This document shows, one piece after another, positions 43,442 to 62,153 of a DNA stretch of 64,000 nucleotides; position 1 is the stretch's first letter, and each line of letters begins with the position of its first letter. The stretch covers positions 186,001 to 250,000 of the forward strand of contig CANSEY010000002.1 in assembly GCA_947646015.1 (NCBI GenBank), given 5' to 3'. The notes beneath the pieces are model-generated. The model saw nothing but the letters and a program-made list of their open reading frames with translations, searched no databases and was not told the origin of the DNA. The DNA comes from an uncultured Bacteroides sp. (GTDB taxonomy: Bacteria; Bacteroidota; Bacteroidia; Bacteroidales; Bacteroidaceae). The translations under genes and the position numbers were made by a program.

Positions 43442-43506
43442 CAAAGTTTGTGAATTCTGTATGAAATGTGCGACACAAACTATTCAATAAATAGCAATTA
43501 CTGACC
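43442..43506 (-). promoter_or_regulatory. PUL operator/promoter of the leftward enzyme block
   Basis: On the minus strand, half-sites GGTCAG and GAATAG lie 21 bp apart around TTTATTGA (43484-43491). CTTTG (43442-43446) follows after exactly 37 bp. The -7 octamer is AAACTTTG, lacking the TA of the consensus, as expected for an activator-dependent promoter. It drives the GH127 gene at 43363. Confidence 0.75.
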
Positions 43507-43552
43507 AATACGATGCGAAATGCGGGTTATGTGAATATTAGAAGTATAAAAA

Positions 43553-43617
43553 GAACAGATTCTTTTGTTTATTGAGCAGTATTTATCCCTTTATTCAACG
43601 AAAATGTTTTTTCTTTG
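43553..43617 (+). promoter_or_regulatory. PUL operator/promoter of the GH43-GH2 rightward block
   Basis: Half-sites GAACAG and GAGCAG lie 21 bp apart around TTTATTGA (43568-43575), and CTTTG (43613-43617) follows after 37 bp. The -7 octamer is TTTCTTTG. The start codon of the GH43 gene is 23 bp further on. Confidence 0.78.
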
Positions 43618-43640
43618 TAGCATCTTAATAACAGAAAGCT

Positions 43641-44747
43641 ATGAAAACAAAGATCTACCTGCTATTTATTACTACCTTATTCTTCTGCGCCGGTTGTGGC
43701 AACAAGAGCGGCGGGCAGAAACAGGAGTCGGTAAGTGCGGCAAAGGATACATATGTAAATCCTTTGTTTCCGGAAGGGGCCGATCCGAGTGCTCTTTTCC
43801 ATAATGGTAAGTATTATTATACCCATGGAACGGAAGATAAGATCATGCTTTGGGAAACGTCCGATATCACTGATATGGCTCATGCGGTTTGCAAGATAGT
43901 GTGGAAGCCTCAGGATCCATCCAACAGTTGTCATCTCTGGGCACCGGAGATTCACTATATCAATGATAAATGGTATATATATTATGCAGCCGACGACGGC
44001 AATACGGATAATCACCAGTTGTACGTACTTGAAAACTCTTCACCCAACCCGATGGAGGGAAAGTTCGAAATGAAAGGAAGTATCATAACCAATCCCGAAT
44101 GGAATTGGGGGATACAGGCCACCACTTTCGAACATAAGGGAGTCCGCTATCTGGTCTGGTCCGGATGGCCCAAGAGGAGAACCAATGCCGAAACTCAATG
44201 TATCTATATTGCCAGGATGAAAAATCCGTGGACACTCGATTCACCCCGTGTCCTGATATCCAAACCCGAGTATGAATGGGAACGGCAGTGGGTCAATCCG
44301 GATGGCAGCCGTACGGCTTACCCCATTTATGTGAATGAAGGGCCTCAGTTCTTCCATTCGAAAGATAATAAGACGTTGATTCTATATTACGCTGCCAGCG
44401 GTTCGTGGTCACCCTATTACTGTGTCGGGATGTTGACTGCCGATGCCGAGAGTGATTTGTTAGATCCGGCTTCCTGGACAAAGAGTTCGGTTCCGGTATT
44501 TCAGCAATCGTTGGAGAATGAAGTTTATGGTCCGGGTGGACTCTCCTTTGTTCCCTCGCCCGATGGGACTGAATGGTATATGATTTACCATGCCCGTCAG
44601 GTGACCAATGGAGACACCGGGAGTCCTGAAACCCGTAATCCGCGAATACAAAAAATAGGATGGGATGCCCATGGAATGCCCGATTTGGGGATTCCGGTTC
44701 GTGCAGGGGTTGCCTTGCCGAAACCTTCGGGTACTCTTTTGAAATAA
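43641..44747 (+). CDS. GH43-family lipoprotein
   Basis: A 368-residue propeller glycosidase homologue with lipobox FCAGC (Cys19). The catalytic base is present (Asp48 in EGADPSALF) and so is the general acid (Glu233 in VNEGPQFF). The position where I expect the pKa-modulating Asp reads NWGIQATT, with Gln159. It is clearly paralogous to the GH43 gene at 32143-33219 along its whole length (HLWxPEIH, YAADDGN, SGWPKRR, YEWERQW). The two copies flank the leftward enzyme block. Arabinofuranosidase, xylosidase or galactofuranosidase activity are all possible. Confidence 0.89.
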   Translation: MKTKIYLLFITTLFFCAGCGNKSGGQKQESVSAAKDTYVNPLFPEGADPSALFHNGKYYYTHGTEDKIMLWETSDITDMAHAVCKIVWKPQDPSNSCHLWAPEIHYINDKWYIYYAADDGNTDNHQLYVLENSSPNPMEGKFEMKGSIITNPEWNWGIQATTFEHKGVRYLVWSGWPKRRTNAETQCIYIARMKNPWTLDSPRVLISKPEYEWERQWVNPDGSRTAYPIYVNEGPQFFHSKDNKTLILYYAASGSWSPYYCVGMLTADAESDLLDPASWTKSSVPVFQQSLENEVYGPGGLSFVPSPDGTEWYMIYHARQVTNGDTGSPETRNPRIQKIGWDAHGMPDLGIPVRAGVALPKPSGTLLK

Positions 44748-44779
44748 AATAGTCATTTAGAACATTTTTTCCTTAGTCT

Positions 44780-44801
44780 GACAGGTAGCCGCCTACCTGT
44801 C
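44780..44801. other. Perfect hairpin between GH43 and GH2 genes
   Basis: GACAGGTAG (44780-44788) and CTACCTGTC (44793-44801) form a 9-bp stem with a 4-nt loop. No T-tract follows, so it is more likely an RNA-processing or attenuating stem than a full terminator. Confidence 0.55.
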
Positions 44802-44849
44802 CCGGGGATCGTATTGCATCATTAATAGGTTAAACATAATTTGAAGACA

Positions 44850-46664
44850 ATGAAAAAGAGCATTTTAATTGCAGTTCTGACAGCGTCGATAGCTACTTCC
44901 GCTTTTGCACAATGGAAACCGGCAGGAGACAAAATCAAGACAAAGTGGGCTGAGCAGGTGAATCCTGAAAATGTATTGCCCGAGTATCCACGTCCGGTGA
45001 TGGAACGGGGAGAGTGGAAGAACCTGAATGGTTTGTGGAATTATGCCATCACCGAGAAAGGAGCTGCTCCTTCAGCTTACGAAGGTCAGATTCTGGTTCC
45101 TTTTGCCATAGAGTCCAGCCTTTCGGGTGTTGGTAAGAAAGTCGGCCCCGACAAAGAACTCTGGTATCAGCGTACTTTCACAGTACCCGCTTCCTGGAAA
45201 GGTAAAAAAGTGATGCTGAACTTCGGTGCTGTAGACTGGAAAGCTGATATTTGGGTCAATGACATTAAGGTGGGACAACACACCGGAGGATTTACTCCTT
45301 TTTCACTCGATATTACGGCTGCTTTGGCTACTAAAGGAGACAATAAACTTGTTGTGAAGGTATGGGACCCGACAGATCGCGGACCTCAGCCTCGTGGCAA
45401 ACAGGTAAACCGTCCGGAAGGCATCTGGTATACGGCTGTTACCGGTATCTGGCAAACTGTCTGGATGGAGCCTGTGGCCGAACGTCATATTACTAATGTT
45501 CGTACGACTTCGGACATCGACCGTAAGAAACTCACAGTGGACGTTACTACCAGTACCAGCTGTCCTTCGGAAGTTGTCGAAGTAAAGGTCTTCGATGGTA
45601 AACAGCTGGTTGCTACCGGAAAAGGATTGAACGGCCAGACTATTGACATTCAGATGCCTGCTGATGCCAAACTGTGGAGTCCTGCTTCTCCGACTCTTTA
45701 TTCTATGCAGATTGCCCTATTGAGCAATGGTAAAGTGACCGATAAAGTAGATAGCTATACAGCTATGCGCAAATACTCTACCCGCCGTGACAAGGACGGA
45801 ATTGTACGTTTGCAGCTGAACAATGAAGATGTGTTCCAGTTCGGTCCTCTCGATCAAGGATGGTGGCCCGACGGACTGTATACAGCTCCGACAGACGAAG
45901 CGTTGGTTTATGATATTCAGAAAACCAAAGACTTCGGATTTAACATGATCCGTAAACACGTGAAGGTGGAACCGGCACGTTGGTATACACACTGTGATAA
46001 ACTGGGTATCATCGTATGGCAGGATATGCCGAACGGCGACCGTGAACCGGAGTGGCAGATGTACAACTACTTCACCGGCAATGAACTGAATCGTAGCGAG
46101 GAGTCGGAACAGATCTATCGCAAAGAGTGGAAGGAAATCATGGATTATCTGTACAACTATCCTTGTATCGGTGTATGGGTTCCGTTTAACGAGCGTTGGG
46201 GACAGTTCAAGACTGAAGATATCGCGACATGGACAAAGAAGTATGATCCTTCACGCCTGGTGAACCCGGCAAGTGGCGGCAATCACTTCCCTTGCGGTGA
46301 TATTCTTGACCTGCATCATTATCCCAATCCGTCACTTGACTTCTACGATGCCGGACGTGCTACCGTGTTGGGTGAATATGGCGGCATCGGCCTGGCACTG
46401 AATGAACATCTTTGGGAACCGAACCACAACTGGGGATACGTGAAGTTCAATTCACCCGAAGAAGTAACCAAACAATACGTTGAATACGGCAATGAACTGT
46501 ATCGGTTGATTTCAAGAGGTTTCTCAGCTGCTGTCTATACACAGACTACGGATGTAGAAATGGAGGTGAACGGACTGATGACATACGACCGTAAAGTGAT
46601 TAAGGTGAATGAAGCTCAGGTGAAAGCTATCAATACAAAGATATGCAATTCTTTAAATAAGTGA
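44850..46664 (+). CDS. GH2 glycosidase
   Basis: Exported family-2 enzyme, 604 residues, signal peptide cut after AFAQ. The first ATG giving a proper signal peptide is at 44850 (MKKSILIAVL). The jelly roll (about 45-210, ERGEWKNLNGLWNYAI, TGIWQTVWMEPV), the immunoglobulin-like domain and the TIM barrel are in the usual order. The acid/base is Glu448 in PFNERWG and the nucleophile Glu509 in VLGEYGG. It has the same architecture as the GH2 at 37324-39108 but differs in the loops around the active site. It follows the GH43 gene by 102 bp. Confidence 0.92.
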   Translation: MKKSILIAVLTASIATSAFAQWKPAGDKIKTKWAEQVNPENVLPEYPRPVMERGEWKNLNGLWNYAITEKGAAPSAYEGQILVPFAIESSLSGVGKKVGPDKELWYQRTFTVPASWKGKKVMLNFGAVDWKADIWVNDIKVGQHTGGFTPFSLDITAALATKGDNKLVVKVWDPTDRGPQPRGKQVNRPEGIWYTAVTGIWQTVWMEPVAERHITNVRTTSDIDRKKLTVDVTTSTSCPSEVVEVKVFDGKQLVATGKGLNGQTIDIQMPADAKLWSPASPTLYSMQIALLSNGKVTDKVDSYTAMRKYSTRRDKDGIVRLQLNNEDVFQFGPLDQGWWPDGLYTAPTDEALVYDIQKTKDFGFNMIRKHVKVEPARWYTHCDKLGIIVWQDMPNGDREPEWQMYNYFTGNELNRSEESEQIYRKEWKEIMDYLYNYPCIGVWVPFNERWGQFKTEDIATWTKKYDPSRLVNPASGGNHFPCGDILDLHHYPNPSLDFYDAGRATVLGEYGGIGLALNEHLWEPNHNWGYVKFNSPEEVTKQYVEYGNELYRLISRGFSAAVYTQTTDVEMEVNGLMTYDRKVIKVNEAQVKAINTKICNSLNK

Positions 46665-46759
46665 TTAGAGTAGGGTGTCGATAGGTACACAGGTTTTTGA
46701 TTAAGGTAAAGATTGTTGAAGGATACTATTTAGATTGAAACATACTAATAAATAAAATA

Positions 46760-49270
46760 ATGAAAAAACTATTCACAATGGCTTTAGCAGTCGGTATGCT
46801 GTGCAATGCGCAGGCAGCCGACCTGTATAAGGCAAGTAGAAATGTTGCTTTGCGTGCGCCGGCGGTGCCTCTCATCACTTCCGACCCCTATCTGTCCATC
46901 TGGTCGCCCACAGATGCGCTGAACGAAAGCAGCACTATGCACTGGACCGGAACGGAACATCCTTTGTTGGGTGCTATCCGTGTAGACGGGAAGACTTACC
47001 GCTTTATGGGGAAAGATAAATTGAATCTTGAAACCCTTGTACCCATGACCGATACCGATACCTGGCAGGGGAGTTATACTTTCGATGAGCCGGCTGCGGG
47101 ATGGAACGCCCTTTCGTTCAATGCTGCCGGATGGAAAGAGGGACAAGGTGCTTTCGGTACTCCCGATATGCCTCGTGTCCATACTCGCTGGACTACTCCG
47201 GACATCTGGGTTCGCCGCGATTTCCAGATTAACGATGATATGAACGGAGAAACCATCTATCTGAAATATTCGCACGACGATGTATTCGAACTCTACCTGA
47301 ATGGTGAAAAGCTGGTTGCTACAGACTATTCATGGAACAACGACGTATTACTCGAACTATCGGATGCAGCCAAGAAGAAGCTGCAAAAAGGAAAAAACGT
47401 ACTTGCCGCACACTGTCACAACACAACAGGAGGTGCTTATGTAGATTTCGGCCTTTATCGCCTGAACAAACAGACGACAGGTTTTGAGACGGCAGCCGTC
47501 CAGAAATCGGTAAGCGTACTCCCCACACAAACTTACTACACGTTTACTTGCGGTCCGGTGGAACTGGACCTGGTGTTTACCGCACCTTTGATGATGGACG
47601 ACCTCGATTTGTTGTCTACTCCCGTTAATTATATTTCTTATCGCGTTCGTTCGCTGGACAAAAAGCAACATGATGTGCAGATGTATGTGGAGACCACTCC
47701 GCAGCTTGCCATCAATGAACTGACGCAACCTACCCGTTCGAAAGTGATCCGCCGTAACGGTATCAATTATGTACAGGCAGGGACTATCGACCAGCCTATC
47801 CTCGCACGAAAAGGAGACGGTATCTGTATTGATTGGGGATATGCTTATCTGGCAGGAAATATAGGTGCCAATACAGCTGTCAGCCTGGGTAACTATTATG
47901 GTATGAAGAACGAGTTTGCTACCAAGGGTTCTTTGTTGCCTACACAAGCCGAGTGCGTGACCCGTCGTGCCGACCAGATGCCGGCTATGGCCTATACTGA
48001 CGATCTGGGTGAAGTAGGTACCGATGGCAAATCCGGCTTCCTGATGTTGGGTTACGATGATATTTATGCTATCGAATACTTCTATCAACCTCGCATGGCC
48101 TACTGGAAGCATGATGGTAAGGTAAGCATCTTCGATGCCTTTGAGCGTGCCAAAGCAAACTATGCGTCTGTCATGGAACGTTGCCGTGCTTACGACGAAA
48201 TGATTCTGAACGATGCAGAAAAAGCAGGTGGCAAAGAATACTCTGAACTGTGTGCATTGGCTTACCGTCAGGTGATTGCCGCCCATAAGCTGTTCAAGGA
48301 TGCGGATGGTAACTTGCTCTTCTTCTCTAAAGAGAACAATAGTAACGGTTGTATCAATACTGTCGACCTGACTTATCCGTCTGCTCCGCTCTTCCTGGCT
48401 TATAACCCCGAATTGCAGAAAGGCATGATGACCAGTATCTTTGAATATAGTGCCAGCGGACGTTGGAACAAGCCTTTCCCGGCTCACGACCTGGGAACTT
48501 ATCCAATTGCTAACGGACAGGTATACGGTGGTGACATGCCGATTGAAGAAGGCGGAAATATGGTAGTCCTGGCTGCTGCTATTGCCAAGGTAGAAGGTAA
48601 CGCCAACTATGCTAAAAAGTATTGGGATTTACTGACCATTTGGACTGATTATCTGGCGGAATACGGACAAGATCCCGAGAACCAACTCTGTACTGATGAC
48701 TTTGCCGGACACTGGGCACATAACGCCAACCTTTCGGTAAAAGCGATCATGGGTGTAGCTGCCTACAGTGAAATGGCCCGTATGCTCGGTATGGATGATG
48801 TAGCCGACCGATATGCTGCCAAAGCCAAAGCAATGGCTACCAAATGGGAACAAATGGCTCGTGAGGGTGATCATTATCGTCTGGCATTCGACCGTGAGAA
48901 TACCTGGAGCCAGAAGTACAATATGGTTTGGGACAAGATGTGGAATCTGAACCTTTTCCCCAATAATGTGATTGAGAAAGAAATTTCTTATTATCAGACC
49001 AAACTGCAAAACCCTTATGGACTTCCGTTGGATTCCCGCAAGGAATATACTAAATCCGACTGGATTATGTGGACTGCTGCCATGTCTTCTGATAAGGCTA
49101 CTTTCGAGAAATTTATTTCTCCGGTATATAAGTATGCTAATGAAACCGTATCACGTGTTCCGCTGAGCGACTGGCATCATACCGATAGCGGTAAGTTTGT
49201 CGGTTTCAAGGCACGTTCCGTGATCGGTGGTTATTGGATGAAGGTATTAATGGATAAAATGCAGAAGTAA
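46760..49270 (+). CDS. Glutaminase A-like protein (DUF4964/DUF5127/DUF4965/DUF1793)
   Basis: Exported 836-residue protein of the group named after fungal glutaminase A; members are frequent in Bacteroides glycan loci. It begins with a DUF4964-like segment (APAVPLITSDPYLSIWSPTD, LLGAIRVDGKTYRFMG). An inserted jelly-roll sugar-binding-like module (about 95-235, FNAAGWKEGQGAFG, DIWVRRDF, LKYSHDDVFELYLNG) follows. Then come the DUF5127 and DUF4965 parts and the (alpha/alpha)-barrel C-terminus (YPSAPLFLAYNPELQKGM, WTDYLAEYGQDPENQLCTDDFAGHWAHNANL). The glutaminase name should not be taken as its function here; a glycan role is more likely from context. Confidence 0.85.
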   Translation: MKKLFTMALAVGMLCNAQAADLYKASRNVALRAPAVPLITSDPYLSIWSPTDALNESSTMHWTGTEHPLLGAIRVDGKTYRFMGKDKLNLETLVPMTDTDTWQGSYTFDEPAAGWNALSFNAAGWKEGQGAFGTPDMPRVHTRWTTPDIWVRRDFQINDDMNGETIYLKYSHDDVFELYLNGEKLVATDYSWNNDVLLELSDAAKKKLQKGKNVLAAHCHNTTGGAYVDFGLYRLNKQTTGFETAAVQKSVSVLPTQTYYTFTCGPVELDLVFTAPLMMDDLDLLSTPVNYISYRVRSLDKKQHDVQMYVETTPQLAINELTQPTRSKVIRRNGINYVQAGTIDQPILARKGDGICIDWGYAYLAGNIGANTAVSLGNYYGMKNEFATKGSLLPTQAECVTRRADQMPAMAYTDDLGEVGTDGKSGFLMLGYDDIYAIEYFYQPRMAYWKHDGKVSIFDAFERAKANYASVMERCRAYDEMILNDAEKAGGKEYSELCALAYRQVIAAHKLFKDADGNLLFFSKENNSNGCINTVDLTYPSAPLFLAYNPELQKGMMTSIFEYSASGRWNKPFPAHDLGTYPIANGQVYGGDMPIEEGGNMVVLAAAIAKVEGNANYAKKYWDLLTIWTDYLAEYGQDPENQLCTDDFAGHWAHNANLSVKAIMGVAAYSEMARMLGMDDVADRYAAKAKAMATKWEQMAREGDHYRLAFDRENTWSQKYNMVWDKMWNLNLFPNNVIEKEISYYQTKLQNPYGLPLDSRKEYTKSDWIMWTAAMSSDKATFEKFISPVYKYANETVSRVPLSDWHHTDSGKFVGFKARSVIGGYWMKVLMDKMQK

Positions 49271-49302
49271 TAAGAACCGGTATATAATTAGGGTTTATTA
49301 TC

Positions 49303-49348
49303 AAGGGTTGTATCAAAAGCTTGTTTTGCTTGGATACAACCCTTTTTT
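49303..49348 (+). terminator. Terminator of the GH43-GH2-glutaminase-like block
   Basis: AAGGGTTGTATC (49303-49314) pairs perfectly with GATACAACCCTT (49333-49344), and TTTT follows. It begins 32 bp after the stop codon. Confidence 0.92.
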
Positions 49349-49418
49349 CTTTCCAAGAGATGTTATGTTGCCTGCCTGTTCTACTTAAGTTGGTGTCGGT
49401 TTAAGCATGAAGTGGCTG

Positions 49419-49735: not shown

Positions 49736-49751
49736 AATGAACAAAGGTAGT

Positions 49752-49799
49752 GAAAAAAGATAATAGTGACTGACAGTATTCCAACTATCAGCCACTATT
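49752..49799 (-). terminator. Terminator of the GH38 gene
   Basis: Arms at 49762-49777 and 49784-49799 form a 16-bp stem with a 6-nt loop. The two imperfect positions are G-U pairs only in the minus-strand RNA and mismatches in the plus-strand RNA. TCTTTTTTC follows in the minus direction. It therefore acts on leftward transcription. Confidence 0.88.
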
Positions 49800-49823
49800 G
49801 TCATTGAATTTACAGTTTTCTGT

Positions 49824-52800
49824 TTATTTATAAACTTCCAGTTCGTAGATACGTGTATCTCTGCCTCCGGTGCTCTGTGTAGGACGAGTCACAAGCAGAC
49901 GGATGTAACGTACTTTTCCGTCATAGTTCAGCGGACGTGAAACGACATTTGCATGGTTACCGTCGATAGCATCCAGAGTCGTCCATTCATCGCCCGGGTT
50001 CATTTTACCTTGCAGGAAGCAACCATTGGTGATGTATGAGTGACTTTCCTGTCCGGCGTTCACCATCTTCCAACCACTGATGTTTTGTGCTTCACCCAGA
50101 TCGAAGTCTACGTAGTTCGGAGTCTGCGAAACGTCACACCACTTTGTATCCGTTTTACCATCCAGCAGGAAGTCCGGTTTTTCTTCGTCGTTGGTATATC
50201 CGGAGCAAGCAATGATTTTAGCTCTTTTCAGGATATTTTCGCGTACTGCTTCTTCATCATTTCCGGCAGTAGCTGCATTACTTACGTTATTGGTGCGGAA
50301 AAGAGTGCCGGAAACGGTTGTAGCCGGTTCATTTTCGGCAACCAGAGTAGCAGCAAACAAAACCACTTTCTCATTTCGGGGCAAGATTACGCTGGTAGCT
50401 CCCTTCGGAATATCCATACCAAATTTGAACATATAAGTGAATTCATAAGGCTGATCACCGTTGGATGCATGGCGGTGTGTACCTACATAGGCAATCTCAG
50501 CATCTTTCAGATATCCTTCGGTGTGTCCTTTATGTCCCCATTGGCCGATGAAGCCGGTATAAGAAGGTACAACGAATGAAGCGGTCTGCTTGCCAATGCG
50601 GAAGTCGGCCTGATTGTCTCCTTCGGTAGAGGCGGCGAGGATATAGAGACGGTTGTATTTGTTTCCCGCAGGCAGTTGCAAGGTATCACCTTCACAAGTC
50701 ATTCCGTTCGCAATCTCTTTTTCTCCCAAGCGGAAAGTGATCTGACCGGCTATCAGTGAGTCCGGCAGAAGTTCGGCTGCAAAAGAATAGCCCGATTCGA
50801 AGTCGCCTTCTCCACGGAATTCATTATAAGAAGCACATTTGCGGTCGTAGTCAAGCGGTAAAGCGGCATATTCGATCGGAGACGCCTCACGTCCCGATGG
50901 TTTGAGGCGTACTTTGTAAGTTCTTACAGAATAAGGAGTGATGTTTACCTGCAACTTGTTTCCTTTGAAAGTTGCATTGCCGATTGTCTTTTCTGTACCG
51001 TTGGCTTCGCTGGCACTGATGATTTCCCCTGCAAAGGTCAGTGTGGCGCTCTGTGCTTTCCGGCCTTCGGTTTCGTATACGCGTACTACATACTCATCGG
51101 TTTCTTCCGCTTTCTTCAGTGCCTTGATCAATACATTGCGGTTGTCCGAAGCGACAAACGAGAACGATTTTCCAGCATTTCCTTTGTGTTTTTCCGTACG
51201 GAAGGCTTTCAGTTGCTGGTTCAGCTTTTCGGCTTTCTCTACAGTGGCAGGTTTATCCAAGGCTCCCTGATGTGGTATCAGGCTGTAGGTGAAGGTATGA
51301 TGACCGAGATCCTGATGATCCTGATATGCGTAACCTCCGCGTGTTTCCGGTGTGTGGAGCAGGGTGAGACGGATCGTATGGTTATCCGGCTTGTCCCATC
51401 CATATTTGCTGTCGTTCATCACCGATACACCATAACTTCCGTCATGATCGGTCAGGTCGGCCCAATATTGTGCATATACTTCGTAAGCTGTTTCGGTATT
51501 GTTGCCACGTTGTATGCTGCCGATACCCAAGTCGTACGTAGCCTTTTCGTTTTCAATATTGAGCGGGAATTCGGCTTTTAACAATGCGTTGGTCGATTGC
51601 CAGTCTATTTCGTTATAGAAGTCGATGCGTTCTGCACGGCTACCTTCATACAGACGTATGTATTGACGGAAGACAGATTCTCCGTGACGTTTCTCGACAC
51701 AAAGCGATTTACGTAAAGTTCCGTCTTCAACCAAAGTTATTTTCACGTCATCCGTAATCGAAACCGGAGTACGGTCGGTTGTCTCTTTCAACACTTCCCA
51801 TGCCGGCCAATTGTATGACTTGTTCTGAGTGAAGAGTGCCAGGCGGATTGCTTTCCCGGCTTTCACCAGCTCTTTGCCGTTCTTTTTGTCAGTCAGAGAG
51901 ACGATATCTCCATTTTTATCCAATGTAATCTTGTACAGAGAGTTTTCCAAGGTATTGACGTTCGTCGAGACGTTGCTTGCACCGGTTCCTGATGTGCGTA
52001 CGTCATATACCACATATCCTGTAGCCGGAACTGTTGCTTCTACCAGGATGCGTGCTTTTCCGTCGGTATAAGAAATGAGCTGAGCCGATACTTTTTTGCC
52101 TTTTTCATCGTACACCGTTATCCCTTTGGGGGCTTTTGGAAGGTCAAGTTCTATTTCCGCAATATCTGTAACCGCAAATCCGAGTGCATTATAAAGGATT
52201 ACCGGAATACCACTGACCCGTGTATCCAATTCCCTGCCGATACCATGAATGGAAGAAGTCAGTACATTGGAGAACTGTTTCAGTGAGATCAGTTCATCGT
52301 TCCATGAAAATTCATAGGCACGCGGTATACTGGTTCCTGTCAGGTCATCGTGGAACTGATGATAAATGAAGCGTTTCCATGCTTCATTGATGGTGCTTCC
52401 CGGATATTTGGCCTGATTCAGCCATTCGGCAGTTACGGCAGCTCTTTCGGCCGCATCTCCCAGTAATTCGTTCTGGCGGTTGTACAATTTCATGGTAGCC
52501 TGTGAGGTGTAGCATCCTGTACCGTGAACATCCATCAACAGTTCACCGTCGAATACCGGTAATTCCGGATGATTCTTATAAGGAAGGTAATCTTTGTAAA
52601 GCTGGTCGCTGGTTGCACTGACAATTTCTACCGGACCGTTTCCGCGAAGTCCTTTTTCCACTGAACGGACAGAGGCCAGTGTCGGTGATCCGCCGATATC
52701 GCCTGTACCGTAATATCTGTATACTGTATTAAGAGGTGTACGGCCTGCCAGTTCTTTCAGTTGTTCGTTTTCTGAAAGGTCTTCGTCGTTCCATCTTCTG

Positions 52801-53483: not shown

Positions 53484-53548
53484 CAAAGGTGACCAAATTC
53501 GCAGAAAGGAGATGAAAAATACTGTTCAATAAATAGCAGAATCTGTTC
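53484..53548 (-). promoter_or_regulatory. PUL operator/promoter of the GH38 gene
   Basis: On the minus strand two perfect GAACAG half-sites lie 21 bp apart around TTTATTGA (53526-53533). CTTTG (53484-53488) follows after 37 bp, within the octamer CACCTTTG. The start codon is 42 bp further on. Confidence 0.78.
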
Positions 53549-53593
53549 AGATGTGCTTTTAGAGCTCTGTGAGGGGGATTGAAATGTTGAAAA

Positions 53594-53658
53594 GAACAGA
53601 TTTTGTTGTTTATTGAACGGAAATTATCGTCTTATTAGTTAAAAATAACTTTCCTTTG
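53594..53658 (+). promoter_or_regulatory. PUL operator/promoter of susC-susD
   Basis: Half-sites GAACAG and GAACGG lie 21 bp apart around TTTATTGA (53609-53616), and CTTTG (53654-53658) follows after 37 bp. The -7 octamer is TTCCTTTG. The leader to the susC-like start is 126 nt. Confidence 0.78.
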
Positions 53659-53759: not shown

Positions 53760-53784
53760 AACCTGTTTTTTAAATTTATGTACT

Positions 53785-56700
53785 ATGCGTAAAAAAGAAC
53801 AAATGTTTTGGCTCGCAAGTCGTAGCAGAATGTGGCGCATACCACTTTGTATGGCTGCCTTTTCGCTTTTGCCAAGTGCCTACAGTTTCGCCAGTGCCGA
53901 AAACCCGGCAACAGAAACTGTATTGGCAGTGAACTCCGTTCAACAACAACGGACTGTAAAGGGTATAGTTATCGACGCCAATGGCGAAGCGGTAATTGGT
54001 GCTAACGTAAAAGAGCCGGGAAGTACAACTGGTACCATCACCGATATGAACGGTGAATTCTCGCTGAGTGTCGGCCCTAAAGCTACACTTGAAATCTCAT
54101 TTATTGGTTACACAACACAAAAAGTAAACGTAGGCGCATCAAACACAGTTAAAGTTATTCTAAAGGAAGACACAAAAGTACTCGATGAAGTCGTTATTAC
54201 CGGTTTCGGTATGTCACAGAAAAAAGCTACTTTGACAGGTGCAGTTTCTGCAATTAAGTCCACAGATATTGAACGCTCGAGTGCAGCGACTGCTTCAGGA
54301 GCTTTAGTTGGTAAAATGGCGGGTTTGAATACTCGTCAGAATGACGGGCGTCCGGGTGCATCCACACAGTTGCAGATTCGTAATATGGGTGATCCATTGT
54401 ATGTAATTGACGGTGTACAATCTGATGGAGGACAATTTAATAACTTGGATTTTAATGATATTGAAAACATTTCCATATTGAAAGATGCGTCTGCTGCCAT
54501 TTATGGTATTCGTGCGGCAAATGGTGTAGTAGTGGTTACTACTAAGAAAGGGCATCGTAATAGTAAAAACACCGTATCCGTGAATGCTTATTATGGTTGG
54601 CAGAAAAATTCAGTATGGATTAAACCTTCAGATACTAAGACTTATGTAAATGCTTATGTTGCAGCTGAAACTTGGGCTAGAAAGTCAGAAGGTGATCGTC
54701 GCTATCCGAAATCTGAATACGATAAATGGATGGATGGTACTGAAACAGGCTATAAAGGATTCAATTGGCGTGATTATATTTGGACTTCTGCTCCTCAGTA
54801 TTATATCAACACTAATTTCCAGGGAGGTTCAGATAAGTCAAATTATTATGTTGCTATTTCTCATTTGGGACAAGATGCTACAGTACGTAATTATGGTGGC
54901 TTCAAACGTACCAATGTTCAGATGAATATTGATATGAATGTGAATGAAAGATTCAAGATTGGTGCTACTATGAATGGGCGTATTGAGGCTCGTAGAAACC
55001 CAGGTGTACCAGGGGGAGATGACTATTGGCTACCTCGTTTTGCTGTGATGAAGAATCAGCCGACAAAAGGTCCGTATGCTAATGATAATCCTCTTTACCC
55101 GCAAAAGGTTTCATCAGATGATGCTACGAACTTTGCCATTTTGAACTATGACAAGTCTGGTCGTTTGAGTGATGTATGGCGTGTTATCCAGATGCAAGCG
55201 ACTGCGGAATATGAGCTTATGAAAGGCTTGAAAGCTAAGGGTATGGTAGGTTATTATTTTGCTTATCGTGAAATGGATAACCATGAATATACTTATAAAT
55301 TGTATCGTTATGATGCTGCTACAGATACGTATCCGGTAGATGTGAATATGAGTAACCCTTATCGTGAACGTATACGTGAGAGAAAAGAAGATATTTTTTC
55401 TAATTTTCAGTTGAATTACGATAATAAATTTGGAGATCATTCTATTAATGCTGTAGCTGCTTTTGAAGCTTCTAAGCGTGATGAACCGTTTACGAAAGTA
55501 CACTCTATTCCTGTTGCCAATAATATGGACCTGATAAACTTCAAAGAAATGGACACTTACGAAGATCTGGGAAATAGAACTCAGGCACGTTTAGGTTGGT
55601 TAGGGCGTATTAATTATAGTTATGCCGATAAATATCTTGTTGAGGTTATTGGTCGCTGGGACGGCTCTTGGAAATTTAAACCAAGTAAACGCTGGGGATT
55701 TTTCCCTTCGGCGTCTTTGGGTTGGAGAATCTCTCAGGAAAATTTCTGGCAAGAGAGTAAGATGGTAAATGTTTTCTCAGATTTTAAGATACGTGGATCT
55801 TATGGAGTTGTCGGTGATGATGATATGGGAGGAGATTATAGTGCTTTTGGTTATATGCCGGGTTACAATTATAACAATGGTGGTGCGGTAATTGACGGGC
55901 AATATGTAGTAGGTTCTGATCCGCGTGGATTACCTAATACTACTATATCATGGAAGAAGGCGAAGATTCTTGATATTGGTGTAGATATGGGATTCTTCAA
56001 TAATCGTTTAAATGCGCAAGTGGATTTCTTCCGTCGCGTGCGTACCGGTTTACCAGCAGGACGTTATGACGTATTACTTCCTTCAGAATTGGGATTTAGT
56101 TTACCGAAAGAGAATCTAAACTCAGATGTACATATTGGTTATGATGCTATGGTACGTTGGACGGATAATATTAATGATTTCAACTATAGTGTTGCTGGTA
56201 ATGTAACCTATTCTCGCTTCTACGATTGGGAACAGTATGATGATCGTCGTAGCAACTCTTGGGATAGATACCGGAATAGTATTTGGCATCGTGTAGGTTA
56301 TATCAATTGGGGACATGAAGTTGTTGGTCGTTTTAAAGATTGGGAAGATATTGCTAATTATCCTATTGATAATGACCGTAAAGGTAATACAACTATTGTT
56401 CCGGGTGACTTTAAATATAAAGATGTCAATGGTGACGGTGTAATCAACGGTATGGACGAACGTCCTATCGGTTATCGCTCTGACTCGACTCCGAACTTAA
56501 ATTATGGTATTAATGTGGCTGCATCGTGGAAAGGATTTGACTTTGCTATGGATTGGACTGGCTCAGGGCTTAGCTCTTGGGCACAGAGATATGAAACAGC
56601 TCGCCCGTTCCAAAACGACGGTAATAGCCCGAGTGAAGTGTTCAAGGATGCTTGGCATTTAGCTGATATCTGGGATGCTGATAGTGAATTAATCCCAGGT

Positions 56701-56985
56701 AAATATCCATTAGTTCGTTTGGGTGATAACGATAGTAGCTATTGGACGAGTGATTTCTGGTTGCATAATGTACGCTATATCAAATTACGTAATCTGGAAT
56801 TGGGATATACTTTACCGAAGGTGATTACAACTAAAGCCGGTATAAGCAGCATGCGTGTATATTTGTCGGGAACTAATCTGTTAACGTTCTCTAATGTACC
56901 GGTTGATCCGGAAGGCATTGCTGATAATGGTTTGGACTATCCGACTATGCGCGTGATTAATATTGGTGTGAACCTCAAATTTTGA
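53785..56985 (+). CDS. SusC/RagA-type TonB-dependent glycan transporter
   Basis: Outer-membrane beta-barrel of 1066 residues that imports oligosaccharides with TonB energy. A long signal peptide ends near SFASAENPA. A carboxypeptidase-regulatory-like domain (about 58-135, VKGIVIDANGEAVIGANV, FSLSVGPKATLEISFIGY) is followed by the TonB box VLDEVVITGFG. The plug domain (ASGALVGKMAGLNTRQNDGRPG, DPLYVIDGV, ILKDASAAIYGIRAANGVVVVTTKKG) precedes the barrel, which ends in VNLKF with the terminal Phe needed for assembly. Past about 54350 the gene is visibly richer in A/T than the enzymes around it. It pairs with the SusD-like lipoprotein 7 bp downstream. Confidence 0.96.
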   Translation: MRKKEQMFWLASRSRMWRIPLCMAAFSLLPSAYSFASAENPATETVLAVNSVQQQRTVKGIVIDANGEAVIGANVKEPGSTTGTITDMNGEFSLSVGPKATLEISFIGYTTQKVNVGASNTVKVILKEDTKVLDEVVITGFGMSQKKATLTGAVSAIKSTDIERSSAATASGALVGKMAGLNTRQNDGRPGASTQLQIRNMGDPLYVIDGVQSDGGQFNNLDFNDIENISILKDASAAIYGIRAANGVVVVTTKKGHRNSKNTVSVNAYYGWQKNSVWIKPSDTKTYVNAYVAAETWARKSEGDRRYPKSEYDKWMDGTETGYKGFNWRDYIWTSAPQYYINTNFQGGSDKSNYYVAISHLGQDATVRNYGGFKRTNVQMNIDMNVNERFKIGATMNGRIEARRNPGVPGGDDYWLPRFAVMKNQPTKGPYANDNPLYPQKVSSDDATNFAILNYDKSGRLSDVWRVIQMQATAEYELMKGLKAKGMVGYYFAYREMDNHEYTYKLYRYDAATDTYPVDVNMSNPYRERIRERKEDIFSNFQLNYDNKFGDHSINAVAAFEASKRDEPFTKVHSIPVANNMDLINFKEMDTYEDLGNRTQARLGWLGRINYSYADKYLVEVIGRWDGSWKFKPSKRWGFFPSASLGWRISQENFWQESKMVNVFSDFKIRGSYGVVGDDDMGGDYSAFGYMPGYNYNNGGAVIDGQYVVGSDPRGLPNTTISWKKAKILDIGVDMGFFNNRLNAQVDFFRRVRTGLPAGRYDVLLPSELGFSLPKENLNSDVHIGYDAMVRWTDNINDFNYSVAGNVTYSRFYDWEQYDDRRSNSWDRYRNSIWHRVGYINWGHEVVGRFKDWEDIANYPIDNDRKGNTTIVPGDFKYKDVNGDGVINGMDERPIGYRSDSTPNLNYGINVAASWKGFDFAMDWTGSGLSSWAQRYETARPFQNDGNSPSEVFKDAWHLADIWDADSELIPGKYPLVRLGDNDSSYWTSDFWLHNVRYIKLRNLELGYTLPKVITTKAGISSMRVYLSGTNLLTFSNVPVDPEGIADNGLDYPTMRVINIGVNLKF

Positions 56986-56992
56986 TTAAAGT

Positions 56993-58840
56993 ATGAAGAA
57001 GAAATATTTATTTTCGGTTATTGCTGCAGGACTTTTGTCATTGAGTAGCTGTAGTGGCTTTCTGGACCAAGATCCGGATACAATTATAACCAATGATCAA
57101 TTATATAGTGATCCGGTTTTGATTAAATCTGCACTAGCCAAGTTGTACGGAGATATTACTTTTGGACAGAGATTAGATGCTCCAGAAGATTATACTTTTT
57201 TGGATGAATCTATTCGCTATTGGCGTGAAGAACGCCAAGACCAAGGACGTAATTGGTGGATACAATACAATTATGATTTGGTTAGAAAGATGAATCAATT
57301 TTTACAGGGATTAAGAGAGTCTACTGCACTTTCTGATACAGAAAAAGCTCCATTGGAAGGTGAAGTACGGTTGATGCGTGCTTGGTACTATTTCTGTTCT
57401 TGCCGCGTATTAGGCGGGGTGCCTATAGTAGGTGATGAAGTGTTTGATTATACACCGGGTATGGATATTACTACTGTCCAGATTCCACGATCAACAGAGG
57501 CTGCGACTTATGATTATATCATAAACGAATGTCATACTATTGCAGATATGATGAGCAGAGAGACAAATAAAAATTCTGCTCGTGCTAATAGATGGACCGC
57601 TAAAATGCTAGAGGCTCGTGCTGCTTTGTATGCTGCTTCAATAGCTAAGTATAATGCTATGATGGTAAATCCTTTAAAAACAGAAGGTGCTGAGGTGGGT
57701 ATTGATGCTAGTAAAGCAAATAGTTATTATGAAATAGCTTTAACTGCTGCTCAAGAGGTTATTACTTCCTCTCCTTATTCTTTGATGAAAACCAATTCTA
57801 CAAAGTGGCAGGACTTAGCTGATAATTTCTATAACGCGATCTGTGAAAAGAATGGCAATACTGAGGTTATGTGGGTGCGTGATTATGTATATCCCGGTCA
57901 GACACACGGGTTTACAAAGTCCTGTATACCTCGTAATATGAATCAAGATGTGGAATCATCTATGATGTCTGTTCTGTTGAATCTGGTAGAAGCATATGAA
58001 CCATTGTCTACTTCTACTCCGGGTGTAGCTGCTAAATTTGAAACGGGTAATGTACAAGATCCTGTTTTCTTTGATACCCCGACTGAATTGTTTACGGCCC
58101 GTGATCCTCGTTTAGGAGGTACTGTGCTTTATCCTGGGTCATTCTTTAATGGGATGGAAACGGAACTGCAGGGTGGCCAGTTAAATAAAGAAAATGGAGC
58201 ATGGACGATTAAAACAAGTACAAGAGGTACGCAAGACAGTGATGGCAATGTCATTACAGCTATTAGTGGACCTTACGAACCACGTGATGACCGTCAATGT
58301 AATAGAACGGGTTTTTATATTCGTAAATTCTTGGATACTACTCCGTCTGCGGGTACAATAGGTCGTGGTTCTGAGATGTGGTCACCTTATTTCCGTTTAG
58401 CAGAAGCATACTTGATAGCTGCAGAGGCCTCCTTTGAATTAAAAGGTAGTACAACTGAATCTTTGGGTTATATCAATGCTATACGTGAACGTGCCGGTGT
58501 ACAACCATTGACGGCTTTGACTTTTGAGAATATAGTTCACGAGAATCAAGTTGAGTTTGCTTTTGAAGGACATCGTTGGTGGGATTTGAAACGTTGGCGT
58601 TTGGCTGATAAAATTTGGAATGGTGATAGCAATAATCCTTCTGCACAACGTCGTGGCTTATGGCCTTATTTAGTGGTAGATAAAGGAGACGCAAATCATG
58701 GAAAGTGGGTTTTCTTTGAGAAGAATATGACCGAAATTTATCCTTATCCGTTGAAATTTGAACTTAGACATTATTATGGTGAGTTTGAGAATGGTTGGTT
58801 GAATAATAACCCGAAATTGGTGAAAAACCCGTATCAATAA
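56993..58840 (+). CDS. SusD/RagB-type surface glycan-binding lipoprotein
   Basis: A 615-residue lipoprotein that caps the SusC barrel and binds glycan. The lipobox is LSSC (Cys20). Helical TPR-like segments typical of SusD are seen (LYGDITFGQ, EVRLMRAWYYFCSCRVLGGVPIV, MLEARAALYAASIAKYN). Near the C-terminus come the family hallmarks RLAEAYLIAAEASFEL, INAIRERAGVQPL and VEFAFEGHRWWDLKRW. The start is 7 bp after the SusC stop. Codon use is A/T-rich, as in the end of susC. Confidence 0.96.
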   Translation: MKKKYLFSVIAAGLLSLSSCSGFLDQDPDTIITNDQLYSDPVLIKSALAKLYGDITFGQRLDAPEDYTFLDESIRYWREERQDQGRNWWIQYNYDLVRKMNQFLQGLRESTALSDTEKAPLEGEVRLMRAWYYFCSCRVLGGVPIVGDEVFDYTPGMDITTVQIPRSTEAATYDYIINECHTIADMMSRETNKNSARANRWTAKMLEARAALYAASIAKYNAMMVNPLKTEGAEVGIDASKANSYYEIALTAAQEVITSSPYSLMKTNSTKWQDLADNFYNAICEKNGNTEVMWVRDYVYPGQTHGFTKSCIPRNMNQDVESSMMSVLLNLVEAYEPLSTSTPGVAAKFETGNVQDPVFFDTPTELFTARDPRLGGTVLYPGSFFNGMETELQGGQLNKENGAWTIKTSTRGTQDSDGNVITAISGPYEPRDDRQCNRTGFYIRKFLDTTPSAGTIGRGSEMWSPYFRLAEAYLIAAEASFELKGSTTESLGYINAIRERAGVQPLTALTFENIVHENQVEFAFEGHRWWDLKRWRLADKIWNGDSNNPSAQRRGLWPYLVVDKGDANHGKWVFFEKNMTEIYPYPLKFELRHYYGEFENGWLNNNPKLVKNPYQ

Positions 58841-58860
58841 TTTTTAATTCGTGGAATACA

Positions 58861-59553
58861 ATGAAAATCAAAACTATATTTTCGACACTGCTGTTAGGCT
58901 TGATAGTAACTACTACAAGTTGTACAAAAGATAACTACGATGCTCCGGAATCTACATTGATGGGACGTATCGTTTACAAGGGAGAACCTTTGCAGTTGCG
59001 TGGTACTAGTGAAGCTATCCAACTTCAGCTTTATCAAGATGGATACGAGAAACATGATCCAATCAATGTTTTTGTTGGTCAGGATGGTGTGTACTCTGCC
59101 AAACTATTTGACGGTGAGTATAAAATGGTAACTAGAGATCATAATGGTCCTTGGGTGAATAGCCGTGATACTACCATTATTCAAGTAAAAGGTAATACTA
59201 CGCATGATGTAGAAGTAACTCCATTCTATACTATTTCTAATGCTGATATTTCATTGGCAGGTAATACAGTTAAGGCTAACTTTACTATTAATAAAGTTGC
59301 CGGAACTAAAATTGATCGTATCATTTTGTTGATGAATACCACTAATTTTGTAGATGATGTTTGGCATAATATTCTGCGTGCAGATGATGCTGACAGAGAA
59401 AGTGTATGGAATGCAGAAGGGGCTTATTCTATGGAGCAAGATCTGACAAATAACGATGCTTTCCAAAAAGCCAAAACAGTTTTCGCTCGTGTATGTGTTT
59501 GGTCTTCTGGCGCAGATCAGGGAATTTACTCTCCTGTGGTCCGACTGAAATAA
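58861..59553 (+). CDS. DUF3823 lipoprotein, probable surface glycan-binding protein
   Basis: A 230-residue lipoprotein (lipobox TTSC, Cys21) 20 bp after the SusD gene. An N-terminal beta-domain (MGRIVYKGEPLQLRGTSEAIQLQLYQ, YSAKLFDGEYKMVTRDHNGPW) is followed by a second beta-sandwich (ISNADISLAGNTVKANFTINK, FARVCVWSSGADQG). DUF3823 proteins commonly follow SusD in Bacteroides loci and are thought to bind glycan. No ligand can be inferred from sequence. Confidence 0.86.
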   Translation: MKIKTIFSTLLLGLIVTTTSCTKDNYDAPESTLMGRIVYKGEPLQLRGTSEAIQLQLYQDGYEKHDPINVFVGQDGVYSAKLFDGEYKMVTRDHNGPWVNSRDTTIIQVKGNTTHDVEVTPFYTISNADISLAGNTVKANFTINKVAGTKIDRIILLMNTTNFVDDVWHNILRADDADRESVWNAEGAYSMEQDLTNNDAFQKAKTVFARVCVWSSGADQGIYSPVVRLK

Positions 59554-59575
59554 TTCATATCAATGTTTAATAGGG

Positions 59576-59612
59576 AAAAGGGTATCGGGCTTTCCTGATA
59601 CCTTTTTCTTTT
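59576..59612 (+). terminator. Terminator after the SusC-SusD-DUF3823 genes
   Basis: A stem of about 14 bp (59576-59589 with 59594-59607, including GGTATC/GATACC and two G-U pairs) with a CTTT loop is followed by CTTTTTT. It separates the uptake genes from the downstream part of the block. Confidence 0.9.
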
Positions 59613-59651
59613 TTAGTAAACTTTTTATTAATCTTTAAATTTTATGTTATC

Positions 59652-60080
59652 ATGAATAAGAAATTTTTTATAACTGCGTTAGTGTTAGTATCTTTAGGTA
59701 TGACAAATGTGATGGCTAATACGTCGGATAATGAACAAATCGAGGTAAGTAGTGTGGATAAAGTGGCTACTACCGAATATTATTTGGAGATTGGTACTCA
59801 GAGTGGTTCCGGTTTGTTTGAAGAAATAGAATTATTGGATCCTACTAAGAAAGTCTTGAGAATTAAAACAAAACGTGGTGGAAGAGTAGAGCTATTCTGT
59901 TATGTAGATAATGGTGAATCTTATAGATTGTGGTATACGGCAGATAGTTGGACCGGGGAGATAATAACCGAGGAAATAAAAGCAAATCGTTTTACTATAA
60001 GTACTAGTTATAATGAAAGTGCTGGTAGTAGCTCTACGACTAAATATGAAACTCGGTATTATTATATCAGAGAGAGATAA
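59652..60080 (+). CDS. Small secreted protein of unknown function
   Basis: A 142-residue protein with a clear signal peptide (MNKKFFITALVLVSLGMTNVMA). The mature part is acidic at first (SDNEQIEVSSVDK) and then beta-rich (TEYYLEIGTQSGSGLFEEIELL, VLRIKTKRGGRVELFCYV, YRLWYTADSWTGEII) and ends in YETRYYYIRER. I recognise no family. It lies between two strong terminators inside the PUL, so it may have its own weak promoter or depend on read-through. Composition is A/T-rich like the SusC/SusD genes. Confidence 0.75.
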   Translation: MNKKFFITALVLVSLGMTNVMANTSDNEQIEVSSVDKVATTEYYLEIGTQSGSGLFEEIELLDPTKKVLRIKTKRGGRVELFCYVDNGESYRLWYTADSWTGEIITEEIKANRFTISTSYNESAGSSSTTKYETRYYYIRER

Positions 60081-60100
60081 CTTGATAACTGGTTAAAACT

Positions 60101-60152
60101 AAAGTCCCCTATATTTGGGTTTATTTTTGATAAACTGAATAAGGGGACTTTT
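60101..60152 (+). terminator. Two-stem terminator between the small unknown gene and GH43
   Basis: AAAGTCCCCT (60101-60110) pairs with AGGGGACTTT (60142-60151), and inside it GTTTAT pairs with ATAAAC (60119-60124 with 60130-60135). A TTCTT tract follows. The GH43 start codon is only 20 bp downstream. Confidence 0.88.
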
Positions 60153-60171
60153 CTTAATTTATATATTCAGC

Positions 60172-61149
60172 ATGAAGAAACTTTTATTTTCCCTTTTTAC
60201 TGTTTTTTCTTTCTGTGTTCCTTCCATTGCACAGCAGTATTCCAACCCCGTTATTAATTACAGTCTTCCCGACCCTACGGTTATCAAGGCAGATGATGGT
60301 TATTATTACCTGTACGCAACGGAAAATATCAGAAATCTTCCTATTCACCGATCGAAAGATATGGTAAACTGGAGCTTTGTGGGTACTGCTTTTACCAATG
60401 AAACCCGCCCTACATTTGAGCCGAAAGGAAATCTTTGGGCACCGGATATAAATAAAATCGGTGATCGGTATGTGATGTATTACTCCATGTCTGTTTGGGG
60501 TGGAGAGTGGACCTGCGGGATTGGTGTGGCTACGGCAGATAAACCTGAGGGACCTTTTACCGATCATGGAAAACTGTTCCGGAGCAATGAAATAGGGATT
60601 CAGAATTGTATCGATCCTTTCTATATAGAAGATGGTGGTAAGAAATACCTTTTTTGGGGAAGCTTTCATGGCATTTATGGAGCAGAACTAAGTGATGACG
60701 GGCTCTCCCTGAAAGAAGGAATGAAACCACAGCAGGTGGCAGGCACAGCCTATGAAGGAACTTATATTCACAAACGGGGAGGCTATTACTATTTGTTTGC
60801 CTCTATCGGTCGTTGCTGTGAAGGATTAAAGAGTACGTATACCACAGTGGTGGGGCGGTCGAAATACTTATTTGGCCCTTATGTAGATAAAAAAGGGGAA
60901 TCGATGCTGGAGAATCATCATGAAGTGCTGATTGATAAAAATGAAGCATTCGTGGGTCCCGGGCACAACTCGGAGATCGTAACAGATGATAAAGGAGCGG
61001 ATTGGGTGTTTTATCACGCTGTCAGTGTGGCCAATCCTGAAGGAAGAGTGTTGATGCTCGACCGTGTAAACTGGAAAAAAGGGTGGCCTGTTGTAGAGGG
61101 TGATACACCGTCGTTGCAAGCAAAAGCACCTGTTATCCGGCACAAATAA
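60172..61149 (+). CDS. GH43 glycosidase, arabinanase/arabinofuranosidase-like
   Basis: Exported family-43 enzyme, 325 residues, signal peptide cut near SIAQQ. The three catalytic positions are canonical: base Asp34 in SLPDPTVIK, pKa-modulating Asp148 in NCIDPFY, and acid Glu195 in YEGTYIHK. The sequence APDINKIGDRYVMYYS and the later GPGHNSEIV match arabinan-acting members. This contrasts with the two altered GH43 paralogues elsewhere in the locus, which belong to another subgroup. No operator copy was found upstream, so it probably depends on read-through from susC. Confidence 0.93.
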   Translation: MKKLLFSLFTVFSFCVPSIAQQYSNPVINYSLPDPTVIKADDGYYYLYATENIRNLPIHRSKDMVNWSFVGTAFTNETRPTFEPKGNLWAPDINKIGDRYVMYYSMSVWGGEWTCGIGVATADKPEGPFTDHGKLFRSNEIGIQNCIDPFYIEDGGKKYLFWGSFHGIYGAELSDDGLSLKEGMKPQQVAGTAYEGTYIHKRGGYYYLFASIGRCCEGLKSTYTTVVGRSKYLFGPYVDKKGESMLENHHEVLIDKNEAFVGPGHNSEIVTDDKGADWVFYHAVSVANPEGRVLMLDRVNWKKGWPVVEGDTPSLQAKAPVIRHK

Positions 61150-61217
61150 GGGAGTAAACATCAGTATGCTACCTACTTCTAATGGTATGGATACCTATAT
61201 ATTACGTCTTATTCCGT

Positions 61218-61325
61218 AATCTTTATCTTGTCCCGCGTACCTGGGCTGCCGTGCCCGAGTACGTGGATTCATGGGCACAGGCACCCGGACTCATGGGCCC
61301 GGGTATACAGGACGAAGTAAAGATT
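61218..61325. repeat. GC-rich complex dyad after the GH43 gene
   Basis: Two 29-bp arms (61218-61246 and 61297-61325) are imperfectly complementary. Both ends start with AATCTTTA and close with GGGC, and all differences are transitions. Smaller nested stems (GTGCCC/GGGCAC, GGGC/GCCC) lie inside. The block is strongly GC-rich in an otherwise AT-rich gap. It could be a folded RNA, a terminator or a repetitive extragenic element. Confidence 0.6.
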
Positions 61326-61357
61326 GCACTATTTCCAACTAATTAATAGAGAAAAAC

Positions 61358-61875
61358 AAAATGGTTCTTCTTCAAATTTGGTGGTAAGTTTTCTTTTACT
61401 CATGGAATCTAATTCAGTTTTCGGACGTGTAAGCCCTCTTTTATAGTTGACAAAAAAGCAGGTATCCCGGCTTTCTCCCGAAGAGTCCATCCGTGAGGTG
61501 AAGAAGCTAATCTTAGACTAAACCATCTGAAAATCAATATCTTTAAGAAGTAAGATTTCTGTCCTCAAAAGCTTTGTTTTAACACAGAGTTAAAGCTTGT
61601 TCTTTGGATGTGAATAAGAAGTTCTTTAAATGCAAAAGACTTGTTATTTGCGCACAAGAACCTGACAACCTGCAAAAGGCGTTAACAATGTTAATTGAAA
61701 AAAGGTATAAGGATGAAGATACCGGTTCAGACGGCGTAAACTCACTTCCGAAACTTGAGCTATCTTATTCAGCCAGTGTCTGTTTTTTCTTATTAAAGCA
61801 AGCAAAAAGGACAATTATCAACTTGAAAATAAAAAAATAAAGAATTGACCACCAAATTTGAAGAAGAACCATTTT
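61358..61875. mobile_element. 518-bp element with perfect 28-bp terminal inverted repeats (decayed IS or MITE)
   Basis: The left end (61358-61385, beginning AAAATGGTTCTTCTTC and ending TTTGGTGGT) is repeated exactly in reverse complement at 61848-61875. The GGTTCTT end resembles ISL3-family ends, from memory. The interior has only short frames, such as the plus-strand run ending SRLSPEESIREVKKLILD and a later run ending LKQAKRTIINLKIKK, which may be transposase scraps. No target-site duplication is obvious. It lies in the roughly 1-kb gap between the GH43 and GH76 genes. Confidence 0.8.
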
Positions 61876-61905
61876 TCGTATGAGAGACGTCCGGTTTCGG
61901 AAGAT

Positions 61906-61937
61906 TCTGTGGAACTCTGTGTGGCTCTGTGGTGAAT
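61906..61937 (+). repeat. Short TCTGTG direct repeat (three units)
   Basis: TCTGTG occurs at 61906, 61916 and 61926, a strict 10-bp period, ending in GGTGAAT. Similar CTCCGTG/TCTGTGGT words form the inverted repeat at 35837-35936. Confidence 0.6.
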
Positions 61938-62088
61938 GATGCCACACCCTCAGTCGTGAGAACCACAAATGAATTCTTTTAATATTACCGTATGTTTCCT
62001 GACCTTACGGATGGAATGGACAAATTCCGGTCAAAAGCCTGTTACATATGTTCCATTATTGATAGTAACCGGTTTATCCCCCGTTTTT

Positions 62089-62153
62089 GGTCAGTTTTTG
62101 CTATTTATTGAATAATAATTATCCTCCTTTCTCCAATATTTCCCCAATCTTTG
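62089..62153 (+). promoter_or_regulatory. PUL operator/promoter of the second GH76 unit
   Basis: Half-sites GGTCAG and GAATAA lie 21 bp apart around TTTATTGA (62104-62111), and CTTTG (62149-62153) follows after 37 bp. The -7 octamer is AATCTTTG. It is nearly identical to the site at 43442-43506. The start codon follows after 32 bp. Confidence 0.78.

Follow-up and report, generated by a model that had tools for sequence, protein, structure and literature searches.

Hybrid two-component systems (HTCSs) form a major regulator class for polysaccharide use in Bacteroides (PMC3878776). Prediction of their regulons drew on B. thetaiotaomicron plus 10 further genomes, with B. fragilis NCTC 9343 among the genomes used, and the operators predicted in this way are direct repeats averaging 21 bp, with dimers inferred to bind along a single face of the helix (Ravcheev et al. 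2013, PMC3878776). In the same 2013 reconstruction, 20 of the 36 HTCSs of B. thetaiotaomicron had no predicted motif. The closest described systems are HTCS_Man-1, -2 and -3 (BT2628, BT3302 and BT3786), which are found in alpha-mannan loci and whose operators comprise two sites of 16 bp each and a spacer of 5 bp (PMC3878776). Other HTCS operators have been studied by EMSA with the receiver-HTH parts of BT4124 and BT4663 (PMC11253607); these operators also occur upstream of PUL operons, as do the sites reported below, but the glycans and promoters concerned are different.

The right half of the window, that is, of the whole 64,000-nucleotide stretch of an uncultured Bacteroides sp. assembly that was analysed, corresponds to a polysaccharide utilization locus (PUL). 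An HTCS gene (27972..31961, + strand, 1329 aa) stands next to a leftward enzyme block encoding two GH127, a GH2, a GH76, a GH3 and a GH43 (32143..43363, - strand). Further along the window are a rightward block for a GH43, a GH2 and a GtaA-like protein (43641..49270, + strand), a leftward GH38 alpha-mannosidase gene (49824..53441, - strand), a rightward block for SusC, SusD, a DUF3823 protein, a 142-aa ORF and a GH43 (53785..61149, + strand) and a GH76 gene (62186..63304, + strand). All were assigned with Pfam, and for the product of the last gene the closest solved relatives in the PDB are alpha-1,6-mannanases. Beyond the window end, genes for a GtaA-like protein, a GH92, a GH125, an aldose epimerase, a DUF418 protein and two GH43 are found. 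With this content the cluster looks as if it were built for alpha-mannan digestion, the GH76, GH38, GH92 and GH125 families presumably pointing to an alpha-mannan backbone as its target.

Like HTCS_Man-1, -2 and -3, the HTCS of this locus occurs in an alpha-mannan cluster together with repeats of 21-bp period that are located upstream of mannosidase and SusC/SusD genes, the likeness being one of period and layout as described (PMC3878776). For these three systems no mention of a fixed distance to the promoter, or of a rule for back-to-back operators, was found. The probable kind of site, an HTCS operator, is already known, and the rigid geometry appears to go beyond the published accounts that were found: in the literature covered, mostly non-subscription papers, no statement was found on a fixed operator-to-promoter distance or on a fixed divergent gap.

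Five sites of common layout in the window

A preliminary description of this DNA had placed five gap-free sites of 65 bp in the PUL, one before every structural unit, and both their coordinates and their strands were found to be correct. Site 1 (43442..43506, - strand; operator 43471-43506, CTTTG 43442-43446) is located upstream of the leftward enzyme block, and site 2 (43553..43617, + strand; operator 43553-43588, CTTTG 43613-43617) upstream of the GH43, GH2 and GtaA-like genes; the two operators are divergent and separated by 46 bp (43507..43552). In the same way, site 3 (53484..53548, - strand; operator 53513-53548, CTTTG 53484-53488) precedes the GH38 gene and site 4 (53594..53658, + strand; operator 53594-53629, CTTTG 53654-53658) the block that begins with SusC, with 45 bp (53549..53593) between their divergent operators. 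Site 5 (62089..62153, + strand; operator 62089-62124, CTTTG 62149-62153) occurs before the GH76 gene and the genes beyond the window end. Five sites therefore precede five operon-like blocks.

The distance from TTTATTGA to CTTTG is 37 bp in all five sites, again as described, and of the 10 occurrences of TTTATTGA in the window five have CTTTG at this distance. The pattern TTTATTGA-N37-CTTTG gives five matches in the window versus a mean of 0.00 in 100 dinucleotide-preserving shuffles, and the upstream part, GRWCAG-N9-TTTATTGA-NYR, retrieves the same five matches with an equally null shuffle mean (0.00), so that a chance origin of the five sites was ruled out by both patterns. When the window was scanned with an 81-column profile, the five sites scored 71.0-79.6 and the next-best place 13.4; with a 36-column profile restricted to the operator, the scores were 39.0-46.9 and 16.9, respectively. 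These gaps in score agree with the earlier observation that neither the region before the regulator gene nor the left, dcw half has a copy.

In the five sites the operator takes the form GRWCAG-N9-TTTATTGANYR, in which GRWCAG and GANYRG repeat at a distance of 21 bp. Self-matching indeed peaks at lag 21 (57 of 120), the second best of the 25 lags tried being lag 10 (49). Each site consists of a 21-bp direct repeat upstream of a Bacteroides -7 box, with TTTG at offset 61 when counted from where the first half-site begins and at offset 40 when counted from the second.

Since several families are repeated among the neighbouring genes of the window (two GH76, two GH2, three GH43 and two GH127), the five sites might be seen as recent, undiverged copies of a single promoter that have no common function. 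Such an origin is hardly credible: the sequence between the operator and the -7 box differs from site to site while both ends are retained, and differences between the window and B. fragilis Q1F2 amount to 5/50 in the upstream flank, 6/180 in the operator, 5/105 in the gap and 0/50 in the box. Conservation of the sites across genera also disfavours recent copying.

The adjacent HTCS as candidate binder

The product of the gene at 27972-31961 combines, in one chain and above Pfam cut-offs, the Reg_prop repeats of a sensor propeller, Y_Y_Y, HisKA, HATPase_c, Response_reg and an AraC-type HTH (HTH_18). Its best relatives in the PDB include 4a2l, a solved HTCS sensor, and 12aw, a receiver-HTH entry. 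The residues SHIP at position 1150 correspond to the S/CHIP motif of HTCSs, which sits at the receiver-HTH interface (PMC11253607); the D-K pair that partners SHIP was not located in this regulator.

Co-occurrence of regulator and site was assessed in 99 genomes of the genus, which were searched with the regulator protein and with the site profile (E <= 0.001), sites being counted anywhere in the genome and not just near the regulator. Orthologs were defined by at least 50% identity, six candidates at most being scored per genome. Among these candidates an ortholog was found in 17 of the 99 genomes, including G207 in which it is split in two pieces. The site is present in 16 of these 17, a number that includes the training genome and its own species, versus 7 of the 82 genomes having no 50% ortholog among the candidates scored (Fisher p 3e-12, relatedness being ignored). 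In G244, which has an ortholog at 62% identity, no site was detected, the best match reaching 18.5 bits. Sites also recur in regulator-ortholog loci of other genera. The preliminary description had named this HTCS as the natural binder, and these data support that prediction: the regulator is the best candidate for binding the five sites, and these are very probably its operators, each located at one fixed position upstream of a sigma-ABfr promoter.

In two of the seven site-bearing genomes that have no 50% ortholog (G162 and G210), the match stands upstream of another HTCS gene, and among the five remaining genomes the DNA-binding domain nearest to that of the regulator shows 44-52% identity to it. 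Together with the strong similarity of motifs reported for three alpha-mannan HTCSs of B. thetaiotaomicron (PMC3878776), this raises the question of whether the main reader of the operators is a different alpha-mannan HTCS, or a number of such HTCSs in common, and not the adjacent one. Such a reading is unlikely in view of the strong co-occurrence of the sites with the ortholog group of the adjacent regulator, and because no other HTCS of the same species exceeds 49% identity to it in the DNA-binding domain, 49% being the value of the next domain after the regulator's own in G231, a genome of the same species. Moreover, in the HTCS loci of contigs C16 and C21 of the own assembly no operator scored above 9.9. 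The adjacent HTCS thus remains the preferred binder, and since sites occur in seven of the 82 genomes without a 50% ortholog, its relatives probably read similar motifs.

A second regulator, 69% identical to the first, was found in the own assembly on contig C62 (L076:1-15481, G000:C62), which also has further copies of the neighbouring TPR (76%) and M23 (83%) genes. It was considered as a paralog sharing the operators, an option that was dropped given its likeness to a locus of another species (G154, 86.8% DNA identity over 7,004 bp) and the lack of any counterpart of this copy in G231. Taken with the TPR and M23 copies, these features indicate that the assembly is probably mixed and C62 foreign to it. 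No operator was found on C62, where the best operator score is 6.6, and this counts against a strict regulator-site rule. Together with G244, the contig also speaks against the adjacent HTCS as the binder.

Operator-to-promoter distance and divergent pairs

The spacing was analysed with the 36 operator columns only, at a threshold of 16, in 86 loci (1.71 Mb) that had been picked by the regulator protein and that correspond to 8 of the 16 stretches of one set and 78 of the 80 loci of another; eight stretches with best operator scores of 3.7-9.9, a contig that duplicated one in the set, and B. fragilis Q1F2 were excluded. The scan yielded 23 distinct matches, with TTTG at offset 61 in 14 and at offset 62 in one, and every other offset within 36-89 was represented by two matches at most. 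Nine of the 23 have no TTTG at 61, and the excess at this offset corresponds to a binomial value of 9e-22 for an assumed rate of 0.012. In another 40 stretches TTTG was found at 61 in 66 of 79 operator matches, a proportion that is biased to such spacing because these stretches were chosen around full-profile matches. When distinct operators of the window and of the scanned loci are pooled, 79 of 89 have TTTG at offset 61. The operator-to-gene distance varies more: before GH127 it is 143 bp in the window and, to the aligned start, 173-275 bp in three relatives.

The consensus of the 79 sites reads tGa.cAGtTTTT.TT.TTTATTGAacagt.atTtTCcT, then ctatcTTTGtA, with a T (57%) four positions and an A (68%) three positions before the TTTG for which these sites were selected, and single sites deviate from it. 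The end of the consensus agrees with TAnnTTTG, the -7 box of sigma-ABfr (PMC7366714). Near -33 only isolated T-rich columns are seen; the spacing of sigma-ABfr boxes varies in general (PMC7366714), and weakness of TTTG at this place would be expected if an activator occupied it. As the conserved block is largely T-rich and has a -7 box at its end, always equally far away, it might instead be a core promoter whose upstream element is recognized by RNA polymerase itself. This is very improbable, since -7 promoters are present at 81% of the primary starts of B. thetaiotaomicron (PMC7366714) and the full block occurs only at six PUL places in the own genome, and since a 21-bp repeat is a regulator-type feature.

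From the observed sites, with their 21-bp repeat, fixed spacing, conservation and co-occurrence with the regulator, the following mechanism can be proposed for an activator that binds the operators. A mannan fragment, as the inducing glycan, would be bound by the periplasmic sensor of the regulator, whose kinase part would then phosphorylate the receiver within the same chain, and a dimer would place its two AraC-type domains on the direct half-sites, which lie 21 bp apart along the same face of the helix. Because the second half-site starts 40 bp before the TTTG of the -7 box, the operator would end at about -36 relative to the predicted transcription start, and the bound protein would meet RNA polymerase at the position of the -33 element, in a class-II-like activation. 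At the araBAD promoter of E. coli, AraC likewise binds through an AraC-type HTH to two direct half-sites that are 21 bp apart and adjoin the core promoter; it differs from an HTCS in its sigma factor and promoter and in being soluble and not phosphorylated. A paper on direct repeats of a xylan regulator was considered as another parallel and set aside, as it concerns a Vibrio XylR-like protein (PMC12125979).

A test that makes no use of motif letters was applied to 377 upstream regions of 78 HTCS loci of Bacteroidota (L094-L171) and revealed 60 repeats at lag 21; lag 22 was also in excess (38), versus 13-18 at lags 19, 20, 23 and 24. The accompanying TTTG peak was weak, with 9 in the 40-44 bin and 1-5 in the other bins, and the antisense strand has 5 in the same 40-44 bin, so that for HTCSs in general such a distance rule is no more than suggested.

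Divergent operators were surveyed with a threshold of 14 and a gap of less than 200 bp, which gave the two pairs of the window and 17 pairs in the 40 stretches. In 13 of these 19, the 5' ends of the operators lie 45-47 bp apart, the remaining gaps being of 35, 36, 53, 53, 95 and 98 bp; several pairs are orthologous and are therefore not independent. A further pair, between SusC and the regulator gene of G097, also has a gap of 45 bp, one of its operators scoring merely 8.6. For the two pairs common to the window, L270 and L271, spacer identity is 30-44% and spacer length 45-47 bp, and between the close relatives L269 and L270 the identity is 96-98%. Gap lengths vary for a third gene pair (45, 46, 36 and 35), in which one pair of relatives is 47-62% identical. 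Retention of the length while the spacer sequence diverged suggests selection on gap length. Two features argue against a strict rule: some divergent partners, including the GH38 sides of L269 and L270, have no TTTG at 61, and if whole 10.5-bp turns are counted around 46, gaps of 35, 36 and 98 bp fit but those of 53, 53 and 95 bp do not. A common mid-gap motif was also considered, as TGTGA occurs in both gaps of the window, and was dropped since other gaps have no TGTGA.

A rigid HTCS promoter rule, in which the second half-site would start exactly 40 bp before TTTG and divergent 5' ends would lie 45-47 bp apart whatever the spacer sequence, is put forward here tentatively, with the odds leaning slightly against it; its 40-bp part may apply to HTCSs across Bacteroidota. 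If the rule is true, the two membrane-bound regulator dimers on a divergent promoter would touch or share a partner, and a constant gap, if confirmed, would itself point to such contact between two bound regulators; expression of transporter and enzymes would then be tied together. Were the distance between repeat and -7 box fixed, operators could also be found by position with no need of their letters, and it would be easier to assign regulators to gene clusters and to design inducible promoters.

Sites beyond the window

In the 4.9-Mb assembly, the exact pattern TTTATTGA-N37-CTTTG returned eight matches, namely the five of the window, C2:264960 and one match each on C19 and C40, and the reversed pattern used as a control returned none. 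C2:264960 (L009:15960), ca. 15 kb beyond the window end, is a sixth exact copy, and the C19 and C40 matches do not carry the operator (operator scores of -12.4 and 0.7, respectively). With one mismatch allowed, 23 matches were obtained in the own assembly versus 14 for the reversed control, indicating that such looser matches of a short pattern are mostly noise. In the region L009:15945-17136 the sixth site is located upstream of an ORF of 97-99 aa that has no Pfam family and of a 6-bladed propeller gene. The product of this ORF, of 97 aa in the own assembly, appears to be secreted and may be of the NVEALA type.

A sequence-only profile built from the six sites scored them at 51.7-62.4 bits in the own assembly, where they are the training set, and the next place at 17.1. 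The own assembly is rated 74.7% complete. The same-species G231, rated 99% complete, matches the window with 99.4% identity across 6,988 bp in the regulator region. In G231 the same profile found six sites at 51.7-62.4 bits, a seventh at C1:3485201 with 27.3 and the next at 16.0. In B. fragilis Q1F2, whose regulator is 95% identical to that of the window, counterparts of the five sites scored 51.7-62.5, that of the sixth site 28.9, a distant site 27.2 and the next place 16.9. The idea of a local regulon needs to be qualified, as not all sites are local: the sixth lies beyond the window end and the seventh elsewhere on the G231 chromosome. In a family-wide search of 151 genomes with the profile, 22 had a site at E <= 0.01, many of them near the threshold, and no weight is placed on this number.

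The weaker distant sites (L306:2569, which is C1:3485201 of G231; L307:2599 of G167; L192:10885-10957 of B. fragilis Q1F2) stand upstream of lipoprotein genes, and a glycan enzyme is not evident there; the lipoprotein of G231 has weak transglutaminase and F5/8 matches and that of G167 a TolB-like propeller. Finally, like operators were detected in relatives (L272, L276, L289 and L296) upstream of a sulfatase gene, of GH115 genes and of a GH67 gene, indicating that the set of genes controlled would differ between species.
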